Assembly (NCBI GenBank): GCA_029857975.1
Contig: JAOUFX010000050.1
Location: 1-10,503, forward strand
Direction of reading: 5' to 3'
Length of the DNA: 10,503 bases
Source: Deltaproteobacteria bacterium
GTDB lineage: Bacteria; Desulfobacterota; SM23-61
The position numbers and the translations under genes are program-made. How positions within the stretch are numbered: position 1 is the first letter of the stretch; every line of letters starts with the position of its first letter. Positions 3,089-8,029 of the stretch are shown here, piece after piece. The notes beneath the pieces are model-generated. The model was not told where the DNA came from and made no database searches. It worked only from the letters and a program-made list of their open reading frames with translations.

Positions 3089-4474
3089 CTACCGACCCGG
3101 CTTTTCCGAGCCTGCCCCAGCGATAGGAACACCCGCAGGCTGCAGATTCAATCGCGACAGCTTCCCCCGGACCAGGTCAATATGCTCTTTCAAGTTATAA
3201 GCCTCCTTGAAAAAGGCTATGGGAACATGAATATGATTGACCGAAGACTCAATCCGGTCCAGCCGGGCCTGGTAATCCCCCATTCGTTCCGGCTGCGGAC
3301 TCTCCAGCACTTCCGATTCGAGGCTTTTGAGTTCCCCATACCAATAATAGAATTTCCGCTGGTTTCTCCAAGAATAGAACCAGGGCATGACTCGGATGAG
3401 AGGTAGCACAACGGCTGCTGTTGGCAACAGGAAAAGAATCAGGCGGTCGAATAACACAGCCATCCAGAAGGGGAGGTAGTCGAACAGGAAGGGGCGTCCG
3501 GATTTATAAAACCTTTCCGCCTGGTCGCTTAAGGGAAAATCCTGGGCCTTCGGGGTGGGAAACTCCCCGGCCTTGTTCACCCATCCCGCATTCCCATGAA
3601 TTTCAGCCGCCGCCTCCAGCAGCAAGTACATCAAAGCCGGGTGCATGGTATCGCGAACTACAAGGTTGGCTGTGGGGGCCAAAAGATGCAGGTCCGAAGG
3701 CGGCAATCCCTTCGTCAGATCCAGAATCCCCTTCGGGAGGATCACATGGGACAGGGCCGGGAAAAGCCGGGTATAAGCTTCCGCCAGGCTGAAGCTCATC
3801 AGCTTCACACCCGGCCGATGCAGGAGATCCTGCACGACGGCGCTATCCGCCGTGCCGAAGATCATCATGGCGTCCACTTCCCCTTCCCAGAGCGCCCTGG
3901 CTGCCTCTGCATTCGGTAGGCCCAAAAGCTGGGTAGGCGGCCCCGCCGTTTGGCCTGCCTCAAGCAAGTCGAAGGCAAATTTGCGGACCCCGCTGCCTTC
4001 CGGCCCGATGTTAATCCTCTTTCCCCTGAGCCGCGAAAGGTCATCGTAATTTTCCCGGCTTCGATAAAATACCCAAAGAGGGGTATAGCAGATTCCTCCC
4101 AAAGAGAGCAGGTTCGGCGTCTCGGCCCGGGAACTGGTTCCGCCCTGGACAATACCCACATCCACTCTGAAAGACTTGTCTCGCAGACGTCTCAAATTCT
4201 CCACCGCTCCCGAAGATGGAAGCAGTTCGAGATGGACTTTCTCCCGAGCCAGGATCTGCCGGTACCATTCTCCAAAAACGGCAAAGCTGCCCCCTTCCAT
4301 TCCGGTCGTCATGGCGATGGTCCTGGGAGGGGCCGGCTGGATAAAATGGTTCACCACGGCGATGACGACGGTAGCGGCCAAAAGCACCAGCGCAATCATC
4401 CCCAGAAGCTCGCGGGCGGGTATTTCCTTGATCTTTCGGCGGCTGCCCTTCTCCTGTCTCACCATTATCTGCAT
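3089..4474 (-). CDS. TAXI-family (NMT1-like) solute-binding protein, membrane-anchored at both ends
   Basis: The product has 461 residues. A hydrophobic helix at about 23-46 follows a basic N-terminus. The binding-protein domain opens with IAMTTGMEGGSF (53-64), the usual start of TAXI proteins (TRAP transporter-associated, extracytoplasmic, immunogenic), and contains INIGPEGSGVR (154-164) and a VDAMMIFGTADS segment at about 200-211. One or two more hydrophobic stretches follow at about 334-364 (FWMAVLFDRLILFLLPTAAVVLPL), then a roughly 90-residue charged, helical tail. The sensor domain should be periplasmic, with the tail probably on the membrane or cytoplasmic side. Classical TAXI proteins are free periplasmic feeders of a TRAP permease, yet no DctM/DctQ-like permease lies in this window. 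A sensory role, or use of a distant permease, is inference. The ATG at 4474 has only a weak ribosome binding site; an ATG three codons later is possible. Confidence 0.85.
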   Translation of the reverse strand: MQIMVRQEKGSRRKIKEIPARELLGMIALVLLAATVVIAVVNHFIQPAPPRTIAMTTGMEGGSFAVFGEWYRQILAREKVHLELLPSSGAVENLRRLRDKSFRVDVGIVQGGTSSRAETPNLLSLGGICYTPLWVFYRSRENYDDLSRLRGKRINIGPEGSGVRKFAFDLLEAGQTAGPPTQLLGLPNAEAARALWEGEVDAMMIFGTADSAVVQDLLHRPGVKLMSFSLAEAYTRLFPALSHVILPKGILDLTKGLPPSDLHLLAPTANLVVRDTMHPALMYLLLEAAAEIHGNAGWVNKAGEFPTPKAQDFPLSDQAERFYKSGRPFLFDYLPFWMAVLFDRLILFLLPTAAVVLPLIRVMPWFYSWRNQRKFYYWYGELKSLESEVLESPQPERMGDYQARLDRIESSVNHIHVPIAFFKEAYNLKEHIDLVRGKLSRLNLQPAGVPIAGAGSEKPGR

Positions 4475-4628: not shown

Positions 4629-5663
4629 TCAGATATAAAGTGACTGCCGGTCACCCTCCAGGCTCTGAATATAAGCTTCCCCCTCTTCTGGTGAAACCCT
4701 TTTGAGGGTTCCATCAGAATTTTGTATGACGACCCCTGTGGAAGTCAGGTTTCGGTAGTTTTCCTTCCGGTCGGCCGGATCCGGCCAGCAGAGGAGCTGG
4801 CAGTTGCCGCAAGTGAGGTAGAGATTAGACCGCATTAGAATATGGGGGAATCCCCCTTCCATCCTGGGCCGCCTATCATAGGCCTTGATTCCCCTGATCA
4901 TGGCATCCCGGAAGGCTCCGTCGTCCTCGGGGATGAAAAATCGGCCCGGCGACCAGGTGGACCATTTTTTCGAGGGATGAAGCCCGGTCATCCCGCCGCA
5001 GACAAATTCACAGCGGAGGTAGTTTCTTCTCTGGGCGTAGGTGAAATCCCGTCCTCCCAGGGTTACCTTCGTTTCTTGCTCCGGGTCCATCAGCCCTGAG
5101 CAGCAGGAAGCCAGGCAGAGCTTACACCGGTTACAGTAATTTGCTTGCGGTGGGAGAGGATCCGTCGGCTCCAGTTCCGCCGCAGTTACGCAGGTTCCGA
5201 GAATCACTGCCGCCCCATACTCCGGAGTGATCACGTTTCCTGAAAAACCAAACCAGCCAACCCCGGAACGGACGGCAAGGTAGCGGTGGGAGAGGTCGGG
5301 ATGCATGCCTAACCTGCCGATTCCCGGCTCATCCCGATAAAACTCGTTGGCCACAACGCCTTGCGAGGGGAATCCCTTCTGTTCCAGATGCTTGGCCAAG
5401 TGAGAGGCGATTCCCGTCACCAGCATGTTGGCCCGCAGGTTGTCCCGTTCGTGGCTGAGACGATCTTCCTTGGCCAGGAAAGGGCGGATGTATTGCTTAT
5501 ACAGCGGGATCGCAAAGGATATGGCGGAACGGGCCTCCGGCAGGATATAGGTGAGTTCCGCAGAAGGAGGGCCTCCCTCCAGGGTTTCACGGGTAACAAT
5601 TCCCACCCGGACCATGCCATAAGATCCGATCATCTTTTTAACCTGTTCGGTAAGGGAAGCCAT
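4629..5663 (-). CDS. QueG-like (epoxyqueuosine reductase-related) 4Fe-4S protein
   Basis: The product has 344 residues from the ATG at 5663, which has AAAGGAG five bases upstream. An overlapping in-frame GTG at 5678 would add five residues but has no ribosome binding site. Family features are the central block GIGRLGMHPDLSHRYLAVRS (114-133) with GVGWFGFSGNVITPEYGAAV following it, then C177-x2-C180-x2-C183-x3-C187, and a second set with C285, C288 and C292 (CGNCQLLCWPD). Extra cysteines are at 188, 218 and 222. Two [4Fe-4S] clusters are therefore likely. Relatives include QueG and the reductive-dehalogenase core, both cobalamin enzymes, but this copy has no queuosine-gene neighbour and its substrate is unknown. 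It begins 11 bases after the osmC stop, so it is cotranscribed with the selenoprotein gene. It may be an electron donor or a repair enzyme in that unit; this is inference. Confidence 0.82.
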   Translation of the reverse strand: MASLTEQVKKMIGSYGMVRVGIVTRETLEGGPPSAELTYILPEARSAISFAIPLYKQYIRPFLAKEDRLSHERDNLRANMLVTGIASHLAKHLEQKGFPSQGVVANEFYRDEPGIGRLGMHPDLSHRYLAVRSGVGWFGFSGNVITPEYGAAVILGTCVTAAELEPTDPLPPQANYCNRCKLCLASCCSGLMDPEQETKVTLGGRDFTYAQRRNYLRCEFVCGGMTGLHPSKKWSTWSPGRFFIPEDDGAFRDAMIRGIKAYDRRPRMEGGFPHILMRSNLYLTCGNCQLLCWPDPADRKENYRNLTSTGVVIQNSDGTLKRVSPEEGEAYIQSLEGDRQSLYI

Positions 5664-5674
5664 GTTTTCTCCTT

Positions 5675-6145
5675 TCACCCTTCCGTTGCCTCGATCACCA
5701 GGTCGTCCTCAATCCGAATGCAGCCAATGACGCTCTGGGCGGCAGGGCATCTCACCAGGTAGGACGAGAATGAATCCTTGGCGTCTTCCGACTTTTCCTT
5801 GGGAATTTTCAAATGGTAGGTGGCCCGGATGCGGGTGATTTTGAGCACACCGTTCACATTCTCGATATCTCCTTCTACATCAGCCCAGTAGCGGTCTTCC
5901 GGAGTGGGAATTTTCTTTCCGGCCAGAACCCCGGCCAGTGTTCCCAACATTCAGGCGGCCGTTGCGGCGACGATATGGTCAAGGGTGGCGGCATGCTCCT
6001 TTTCCGGCTCGACTTTGTAAAACTTTTTGATTCCCCCATGGACCCCGTAATAGATCGGTTCATGAAACCCCTCAATCACGGCTCTCCGCGTAGGCCCTTT
6101 TTCCCTCACAATTTTTATGCGGGATGTATGGACGATTTCTCCCAT
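5675..6145 (-). CDS. OsmC-family selenoprotein (UGA read as selenocysteine at residue 65)
   Basis: Read straight through, this is one 156-residue OsmC-like protein: MGEIVHTSRI ... HAATLDHIVAATAA, then codon TGA at 5953-5951, then MLGTLAGVLAGKKIPTP and onward to the end. The halves are in the same frame with no gap, and the total is a normal OsmC length. OsmC/Ohr proteins are thiol peroxidases with two conserved cysteines; the first sits in the helix after the (T)LDH...A motif and the second is in a CP motif. Here the UGA falls exactly on the first site and the second is intact (YLVRCP, Cys133). A bSECIS-like hairpin follows immediately (see 5906-5950). OsmC-like selenoproteins are an established class in selenoprotein-rich Deltaproteobacteria. 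The start ATG at 6145 has a strong AAGGAGG. Likely role: reduction of hydroperoxides or related electrophiles in the cytoplasm. The gene lies downstream of a MarR gene, as ohr does with ohrR. The alternative is a nonsense mutation, which is unlikely given the position and hairpin. Confidence 0.88.
5906..5950 (-). promoter_or_regulatory. bSECIS-like element directly after the osmC UGA
   Basis: On the minus strand, after UGA and five bases, comes GGGAA (5945-5941), CA, then CUGGCC (5938-5933), the loop GGGGUUCU (5932-5925), GGCCGG (5924-5919), an A-rich bulge of eight bases, and UUCCC (5910-5906). The upper stem is 6 bp with one G-U pair and the lower stem is 5 bp. The apical loop carries GG followed by U and starts 19 bases after the UGA. 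This matches the known bacterial SECIS layout (stem-loop immediately 3' of UGA, guanines in the loop about 16-37 bases away), which SelB recognises. It lies within the coding sequence. The stem pairing is read directly; the function is inferred. Confidence 0.75.
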
Positions 6146-6308: not shown

Positions 6309-6722
6309 TCATCCTTTAATGTCCTTGAGCATCCTTTTGAACAAAAGCTTCTCTTCTAAAGATAGAACGCTGGTCAACTCTTCGTTGACCGCTTTTCTCT
6401 GTCCCGCCAAGCCGTCCATCATTTTTCTGGCTTTGGCCGTCACCGATACGCGCAGGGACCGCCGGTCTTCAGGATTTTCTTCTTTTTTAACCAATCCGGC
6501 CTCGGCCATGCGGTCTAAAACCCCGGAAAGCGTGGCGCCGTCCATGATCGTTCTTTCGGAAATTTCCGCGGGAGAGAGGGCTTCTTCATCCCCGAGTACG
6601 GCCAGGATTAAATGCTGAACGGGGGTCAAGCCGAAAGGTAAAAGTTTTTTCTTGAGTAATCCATGGGCTCTTTGGTAAGCCTTACCCAGAAGGAAAACAA
6701 AACATTCTTCGTACTCGGCCAT
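6309..6722 (-). CDS. MarR-family transcriptional regulator, possibly OhrR-like
   Basis: The 137-residue length is typical of MarR. The N-terminal dimer helices are followed by the winged helix at about 32-98: LTPVQHLILAVL (32-43), recognition region SPAEISERTIMDGATLSGVLDRMAEAGLV within 50-78, and wing NPEDRRSLRVSVT (83-95). Such proteins bind palindromes as dimers and release DNA on sensing a ligand or oxidant. Cys7, in EECFVF, lies near where OhrR carries its peroxide-sensing cysteine (CF followed by hydrophobics), offset by roughly two residues, and the next gene is an OsmC/Ohr relative. An organic-hydroperoxide sensor is therefore a fair inference but not proven. The ATG at 6722 has GAGG four bases upstream. 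Its own promoter carries a perfect palindrome at the start site, suggesting autorepression. Confidence 0.9.
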   Translation of the reverse strand: MAEYEECFVFLLGKAYQRAHGLLKKKLLPFGLTPVQHLILAVLGDEEALSPAEISERTIMDGATLSGVLDRMAEAGLVKKEENPEDRRSLRVSVTAKARKMMDGLAGQRKAVNEELTSVLSLEEKLLFKRMLKDIKG

Positions 6723-6955: not shown

Positions 6956-7029
6956 TGGGGGATCGTTCAACGGTAGGACAACGGACTCTGACTCCGTGAA
7001 TCAAGGTTCAAATCCTTGTCCCCCAGCCA
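6956..7029 (+). tRNA. tRNA-Gln (anticodon CUG)
   Basis: A full cloverleaf can be drawn: acceptor TGGGGGA (6956-6962) with TCCCCCA (7019-7025); anticodon stem ACGGA/TCCGT enclosing the loop CTCTGAC with anticodon CTG at 6988-6990; T arm CAAGG-TTCAAAT-CCTTG (7002-7018). The discriminator G and an encoded CCA (7027-7029) end the gene. The anticodon reads CAG, so the tRNA carries glutamine. The UGGGGGA acceptor start is typical of bacterial tRNA-Gln. Confidence 0.95.
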
Positions 7030-7436: not shown

Positions 7437-7727
7437 TTAAGCATACTTGTCCAAAATGTCTTTCTTCCTGAACTCTTCAGTTGATAAATTTTGCGGATCG
7501 GTGTAGATTTCGACATTCAATGATGTTTGGATATACTTTTCATTCCAGAAATTTCGACGAAGTGCAGAGATTGGAACGATCTCCTCTACTGGAAAGAGAT
7601 AAAAATCGGCCTTGACAGGGCTCATTTTTTGTCTAAATTTCAGCCATTGTAATTTCCCCGTTCGTGATTTAATTAATACCTGACCTTGAACTTCTGGAGG
7701 ATTTATGCAAGAGATTTTCCGGGCGAT
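7437..7727 (-). pseudogene. Unrecognised C-terminal coding remnant
   Basis: A frame of 96 codons is open from just after a TGA at 7730-7728 to TAA at 7439-7437. It has a protein-like composition (for example QWLKFRQKMSPVKADFYLFP and PISALRRNFWNEKY). The only ATG (7625) gives 62 residues and has no ribosome binding site, so the readable part upstream of it suggests that a longer gene has lost its 5' end. It abuts the broken metallo-beta-lactamase fragment at about 7735. I do not recognise the family. Confidence 0.35.
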
Positions 7728-8029
7728 TCATTAAAAAGAAAAGATTTCGGTGGCCTCTTCCATGGGGTCATGGTGTCGGCGATAATCATACCGTCATCGC
7801 CCTCGATCATGATGGAATTGGCGATGCCGTAACCGATGGCGGCGTAGATATTGTCCCCGACCTTTTCTACGCCCTTTTTGAATACCCGGCTGTGCTCCGC
7901 CAGGGCCTTGTTGGCGCCAACCGGCAGGACGGGAGACGATATTTTTAGGGCTCGGCCGGAATAAAACCATATCCCGGCCAGCCCCGCGGTCAGGATGACC
8001 ATGATCCCGATAATTATCTTTTTACACAT
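7703..8029 (-). pseudogene. Truncated, frameshifted alkyl-sulfatase-like metallo-beta-lactamase-fold gene (5' fragment)
   Basis: The open frame encodes 108 residues. An N-terminal hydrophobic segment at about 4-24 is an export signal or anchor. Next comes AEHSRVFKKGVEKVGDNIYAAIGYGIANSIMIEGDDGMIIADTM, read here as residues about 44-87, which resembles the start of the alkyl/aryl-sulfatase (BDS1-like) branch of the metallo-beta-lactamase fold. The family usually runs to several hundred residues, and the HxHxDH zinc motif is missing here. After ADTM the frame shifts at a C run near 7764-7767: a one-base loss would explain why MEEATEIF, the expected continuation, appears in another frame. Similarity then ends near 7740. 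The ATG at 8029 keeps a good GGAGG. The gene diverges from the alpha/beta hydrolase gene. Confidence 0.7.

Follow-up and report, generated by a model that had tools for sequence, protein, structure and literature searches.

Does a TGA codon that interrupts an OsmC-like reading frame end one protein, or is it read as selenocysteine (Sec)? The question arises on the minus strand of contig JAOUFX010000050.1 from a Deltaproteobacteria bacterium, in a stretch of 10,503 nucleotides that we refer to as the window. The original prediction, made from the letters of the DNA, saw there a single OsmC protein with Sec in place of the catalytic cysteine (Cys). We consider it highly probable that the locus as a whole is the gene of a single OsmC/Ohr-superfamily selenoprotein (hereafter Sec-OsmC), in which Sec65 is inserted by SelB with the help of an RNA hairpin and hydroperoxide reduction is the likely activity. 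Three lines of evidence back Sec at the OsmC peroxidatic position: (i) homologues with Cys at the same residue, (ii) a Sec insertion sequence (SECIS) that is under synonymous constraint and has decayed in the two Cys copies compared at the DNA level and (iii) the Sec machinery found in the genomes of relatives.

The frame is as first described, with a single TGA interrupting 156 otherwise intact codons (Table 1). Gene calling with translation table 11 breaks it into pieces of 64 and 91 amino acids (5951–6145 and 5675–5950). When C is substituted at residue 65, the translation matches Pfam OsmC (PF02566) over residues 56–145 with 33.6 bits, against a curated cut-off of 27.5; close relatives also lie near this cut-off, at 29.6–30.9 bits in four genomes and below it, at 26.6, in G002. 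No NCBIfam model matches the protein. Alignment to the Ohr protein 6d9n (E 0.025) places residue 65 on Cys65 of Ohr and C133 on the second Cys, and the Cys-containing homologues described below agree at residue 65. The second Cys, which had been predicted as part of an intact CP motif, is present in 79/79 Sec sequences (the window plus the 78 TGA loci introduced below). A further cysteine, Cys142, is typical of the subfamily, occurring in 76/79 Sec sequences versus 16 of the 120 listed proteins of a sister subfamily. The window reads UMLGT at the active site, with Thr at +4, and nearly all relatives conform to the motif U-M-[ML]-G-T (UxxxT). T69 is nearly invariant in our alignment (A3), where R20 and D56 are invariant; R20 is replaced by N in 58/120 listed sister proteins. 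In Ohr, a catalytic Arg and a Glu lie beside the Cys pair. The predicted model of the protein has the OsmC/Ohr fold, matching known structures well over residues 52–153.

To compare codon 65 across relatives, aligned homologues were used to scan the contigs of genomes, and the best 80 of 128 loci were taken. It is TGA in 78/80 and TGC (Cys) in the other two, L047 and L050, and nothing else occurs. Homologues with neither Cys nor Sec at this site, which the original prediction had named among the observations that would count against it, are thus not seen among these loci at the DNA level. One genome, G046, carries both a Sec copy (L046) and a Cys copy (L047). A second draw of 297 genomes from the phylum of the nearest relative, with a match threshold of 1e-15, gave a match in 26 genomes. 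Of the 27 matches fetched (one gene at contig ends being counted as two pieces), L106 stops short of codon 65; the remaining 26, from 25 genomes, all carry TGA, including L105 at 36% identity. Seven second-draw genomes overlap the first set (G001, G002, G004, G005, G039, G044 and G048). These counts bear on the possibility that the TGA marks a pseudogene or is a sequencing error in what was a Cys codon. TGA is indeed one base from both TGC and TGT, but its recurrence in 78/80 loci, with both halves of the frame conserved and extra synonymous constraint downstream, leaves this explanation with a negligible share of our confidence.

The RNA downstream of the UGA has the properties of a bacterial SECIS (bSECIS). 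The rules given in PMC13188914 call for a loop of 3–9 nt with G in the first two loop positions, a stem of 4–16 bp, a distance of 16–37 nt from the UGA and an energy of at most −7.5 kcal/mol. The window hairpin satisfies every one of them (GGUU loop, 8 bp, 20 nt and −14.0 kcal/mol). When the rules are applied over columns 13–38, 77/79 Sec sequences pass versus 477/2370 nulls with synonymous codons. The two that fail, L011 and L035, have no G in the required loop position; the energy limit is missed by both TGC copies, at −5.0 kcal/mol. For the 79 Sec sequences, RNAalifold returns a single 7-bp stem, pairing columns 16–22 with 29–35 (counted from the U of the UGA), with 97.2% of cells paired. 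The inner part of the two-part hairpin originally proposed is therefore conserved; the outer stem forms in the window, starting as proposed at the fifth base 3′ of the TGA, but is only partly kept in relatives, where 76.8% of cells are paired and one pair is open in 36/71 distinct rows. The GGGGU that had been placed in the loop straddles the top of the stem and the loop, which folds as GGUU. An Rfam scan of the window found no SECIS family, its one match above the gathering score being a tRNA.

Codon usage within the hairpin points in the same direction. Among codons whose amino acid is conserved, the nine within 67–78 have a mean normalised codon entropy of 0.48, whereas the 104 at other positions average 0.86 (Mann-Whitney p 0.003). 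The stem codons 70, 71, 74 and 75 (CTG GCC ... CTG GCC) are nearly frozen synonymously (0.07–0.19), and codons 68, 77 and 78 in the same stretch are unconstrained (0.89–0.97). The lowest entropies outside 67–78 are those of S138 (0.27), V31 (0.30) and I140 (0.46). We regard this synonymous constraint as stronger evidence of a SECIS than covariation.

The machinery for Sec insertion was sought in 49 genomes, those behind L001–L050 of the 80 loci. SelA exceeds the cut-off in 47 of these genomes, SelB in 47 and SelD in 45, and a tRNA-Sec of at least 70 bits is found in 38; counting weaker matches as well, tRNA-Sec passes the tool's own cut-off in 44, a cut-off that controls also exceed in 5/14 cases. 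Each of the 45 SelD-bearing genomes has at least one SelD copy with one in-frame TGA, an internal sign of UGA decoding. Residue 65 is very probably built with selenocysteine, as judged by comparison with relatives.

Several observations weigh against this interpretation. Covariation in the hairpin is modest, with changes on both sides in 2/7 stem pairs. The 59-nt fold is no better than shuffled sequences (z −1.03; 32/200 equally good), nor is a 71-nt stretch unusual (z −0.58); the 44 nt with the inner hairpin alone are unusual (z −2.62; 4/200). On the protein side, the model superposes poorly on known structures when its whole length is used (Foldseek TM score 0.40–0.57, root-mean-square deviation 11–14), and the correspondence to the Ohr active site is established here for the two Cys positions. 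In the draft genome of the nearest relative, G004 (L004, 90% identity), SelB reaches 89 bits at best, under the cut-off; SelA, SelD and tRNA-Sec are present. G042, a Nitrospiraceae metagenome-assembled genome with a 2.7-Mb chromosome record, has adjacent SelA and SelB (L143) and a TGA-containing OsmC gene, and has neither tRNA-Sec nor SelD over the cut-off, perhaps because a piece is missing or the tRNA is an unusual one; when the surroundings of selB were searched in G042 and G047, no tRNA-Sec was found. Lastly, co-occurrence of SelA with the gene is weak evidence because SelA exceeds the cut-off in 269/297 sampled phylum genomes, and its presence in 26/26 gene-bearing genomes is little above expectation.

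Two arrangements of the machinery genes were also recorded. A second type of tRNA-Sec (88–90 nt, anticodon TCA, 53.6–57.6 bits) occurs at L108, L109, L110 and L111 in G031, G026, G045 and G038, and ends 44–90 bp 5′ of the point where the match to a second, divergent SelB (258–287 bits) begins; a standard tRNA-Sec of at least 70 bits is also found in three of these genomes (not G026). In G039, contig C31 (approximately 19091–26837) has a cluster of SelD without TGA, tRNA-Sec, SelA and a SelB stretch, with further SelA, SelB and TGA-containing SelD copies on other contigs.

How such proteins are represented in databases bears on two further explanations. A protein search found 2099 homologues, of which 120 were listed, and 101 of these 120 are C-terminal fragments of 88–96 amino acids that begin at residue 66 (89 proteins) or 67 (12 proteins), cut at or beside the active site. 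The expectation that standard annotation would miss the protein is thereby borne out: many copies of a widespread protein appear as fragments because the Sec codon also means stop. The same fragments could be taken to mean that there are two separate proteins, translation stopping at the TGA and restarting at the adjoining ATG (TGAATG) to give two subunits or coupled products. The ATG lies directly 3′ of the TGA in 78/79 Sec sequences, and the C-terminal half is stored as a gene of its own in those 101 entries. However, L047 and L050, the two Cys loci, also have Met at this position, as do 8/9 full-length Cys proteins, and none of these needs a restart; in L080 and the distant L105, the TGA is followed by CTG. 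The break would also fall on the catalytic residue, inside a single helix (H55–76) of the predicted model, and the constraint on the hairpin would be left without explanation. We therefore consider two proteins very improbable.

The 19 full-length homologues among the 120 listed have Cys at residue 65 in nine cases and tryptophan (Trp) in 10, which raises the possibility that UGA is read as Trp under genetic code 4 or 25. Similarly, the sister subfamily (P0122–P0241, 120 listed) has Cys at this position in 65 proteins and Trp in 51. The DNA tells against a genuine Trp: no TGG is found in the 80 loci, and in the window the MarR, QueG-like and hydrolase genes and osmC itself end in TGA, beyond which their frames continue for just 6–22 residues. 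The Trp label requires nine changes on the tree, a value as low in 115/500 shuffles, and the Trp-labelled P0013 groups with the TGA locus L063. Across both protein searches, the longest contig exceeds 5 kb for 0/61 Trp proteins versus 28/72 Cys proteins (leaving out P0166 and P0210, two Cys rows without a length), and for no Trp protein of the sister subfamily does the longest contig exceed 3483 bases. Because TGG is absent from the loci, Trp is scattered on the tree and the Trp contigs are short, Trp at residue 65 is most likely a UGA to which gene calling on short contigs applied table 4, and decoding as Trp in the organism seems more improbable still than two proteins. The Trp proteins of the sister subfamily are probably many more hidden Sec-OsmC genes.

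With Sec as the preferred assignment for UGA, the history of residue 65 can be considered. As outgroup we used eight Cys proteins of the sister subfamily (every eighth full-length one), and L105 falls among them. OsmC-family paralogues from 12 genomes were dropped as an outgroup, being mostly too distant, and rooting on L105 alone was not used, its branch being 7.5 long; that rooting nests the eight subfamily Cys rows described next as well. In the rooted tree, the subfamily of the window holds together at 100/100, with 102 rows comprising 91 Sec and 11 Cys. Eight of the Cys rows form one clade (100/87) nested within ever larger sets that contain one, three and five Sec rows (99/83, 100/96 and 99/92). 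The Sec neighbours of this clade are L029, L017/L025 and L008/L023 in the unrooted and L105-rooted trees. Each of the three remaining Cys rows (P0004, P0018 and P0019) stands alone, the last two on long branches. The plainest reading of these sequences is that Sec would be ancestral in the subfamily, with at least one reversal to Cys and decay of the hairpin in L047 and L050. These two loci and L029, a Sec locus, have neighbours in common (clusters 9, 23 and 24), as expected if Sec changed to Cys in place.

A working mechanism can be proposed. SelB carrying Sec-tRNA-Sec, acting on the hairpin past the UGA, would place selenocysteine at residue 65, and a ribosome without SelB and Sec-tRNA-Sec would stop there and release a 64-residue piece. 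The selenol of Sec65 would most likely reduce a hydroperoxide, and Cys133 would resolve the resulting selenenic acid by forming a selenenylsulfide, which a reductant of the cell would recycle, perhaps by way of Cys142. Comparison establishes the UGA, the Cys homologous to it, the constraint on the SECIS, the Sec machinery of relatives and the fold of the predicted model; for this organism we infer the insertion of Sec, the peroxidase activity, the substrate and the reductant.

Table 1. Features of the window at and around the Sec-OsmC gene (positions in the 10,503-nt stretch).
Feature	Position	Strand	Remarks
Sec-OsmC gene	6145–5675	minus	156 aa (amino acids), Sec = residue 65; start ATG 6145, stop TGA 5677–5675
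Shine-Dalgarno-like AAGGAGGGGG	6160–6151	minus	5 nt 5′ of ATG 6145
In-frame TGA	5953–5951	minus	codon 65, sole internal stop; OsmC/Ohr peroxidatic Cys position
Outer stem	5946–5905	minus	5946–5941 with 5910–5905
bSECIS stem-loop	5938–5919	minus	loop 5930–5927, beginning 20 nt past the UGA
Cys133	5749–5747	minus	candidate resolving Cys, CPAAQ motif
Cys142	5722–5720	minus	additional subfamily-typical Cys
QueG/reductive-dehalogenase-like Fe-S protein	4629–5663	minus	downstream; 11 nt past the Sec-OsmC stop if the start is ATG 5663
MarR-family regulator	6309–6722	minus	upstream; Pfam MarR_2 and MarR
TAXI/NMT1-like binding protein	3089–4474		between QueG-like and nitroreductase genes
tRNA-Gln (CTG)	6956–7029	plus	ARAGORN; the single Rfam match above the gathering score
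108-aa open reading frame	7703–8029		no Pfam or NCBIfam match

Among the neighbouring genes (Table 1), the QueG-like protein has matches to TIGR00276 and TIGR02486, both under the cut-off, and no Pfam match; its gene adjoins in L002, L004 and L005 at 80–82% identity. By tblastn, L001, L002 and L004 have the MarR gene upstream, and its N-terminal Cys7 is kept in L001, L002, L004 and L009. We do not claim that Cys7 is equivalent to the OhrR cysteine, as in the phmmer alignment Cys22 of OhrR (2pfb) falls two residues beyond it. At the remaining loci, of which many are short, tblastn found neither the MarR nor the QueG-like neighbour beside the gene, and the TAXI/NMT1-like gene was not found in L002 or L004. 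The 108-residue frame looks by eye like what we take to be the start of a metallo-beta-lactamase-fold protein.

An alternative is that Sec-OsmC, although a selenoprotein, is no peroxidase and has a different substrate, such as a persulfide, a disulfide or an electrophile. The protein is far from the characterised Ohr and OsmC proteins (Foldseek identity 11–21% among the matches listed), no NCBIfam family claims it, and the Fe-S, nitroreductase-like and QueG/RdhA-like proteins of the window are unaccompanied by classical peroxide-stress genes. On the other hand, both redox positions of the superfamily are kept, a rubrerythrin comes after the gene in 8/80 loci, and near kin have upstream a MarR regulator with an N-terminal Cys. 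We judge a different substrate unlikely, though it deserves serious consideration, and prefer hydroperoxide reduction.

Two comparisons place Sec-OsmC among known systems, and a third relates it to its sister subfamily. The original prediction recognized that OsmC-like selenoproteins are known; they have been reported since 2005, from Sargasso Sea and Global Ocean Sampling data, and the kind is therefore not new. PMC1088965 describes three Sargasso Sea sequences with a UxxT motif and a predicted SECIS after the UGA, PMC2398784 gives 5 as the first count of the corresponding row for the ocean sampling data, again with UxxT, and reviews of 2022 and 2026 catalogue the UxxT protein (PMC9312934 and PMC13188914). 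The catalogued protein resembles the present one in family (PF02566/COG1765) and in having Sec at a redox position, but is set apart by its motif description, UxxT rather than UxxxT. The Ohr/OsmC thiol peroxidases (PDB 1nye, 6d9n and 1n2f) share the fold of residues 52–153 and the positions of the Cys pair (65 and C133), but have a peroxidatic Cys where Sec is found here together with the common extra Cys142. The sister subfamily, reached through L105, likewise has TGA (L105) or Cys at residue 65 and retains C133 in 119/120 listed proteins, but mostly lacks Cys142, and the sequence after the TGA differs in L105. A literature search by title found nothing on a UxxxT subfamily, most subscription papers and supplements being outside its reach. 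Novelty had been assigned to this instance and its operon context; the operon context proves weak, its neighbours being shared with few close kin, and what appears to be new is the breadth of a Sec-ancestral UxxxT subfamily, a nested Cys reversal with a decayed hairpin and the wide mis-annotation.

Taken furthest, these results would describe an uncatalogued, Sec-ancestral lineage of OsmC peroxidases in anaerobes, in which a Sec65/Cys133/Cys142 relay is coupled to partners of the Fe-S, rubrerythrin or flavodoxin type, Sec has reverted to Cys and the SECIS been lost along with it, and most members are hidden by stop splitting or a table-4 Trp; we offer this broader picture tentatively, holding it somewhat more doubtful than not. 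A Trp at a catalytic Cys position on a short contig may be a Sec in disguise, and the nested Cys clade is a natural before-and-after pair for the loss of Sec. A chemistry known from a handful of marine sequences now marks a whole subfamily, with TGA in 78/80 loci and a match in 26/297 genomes of the phylum.
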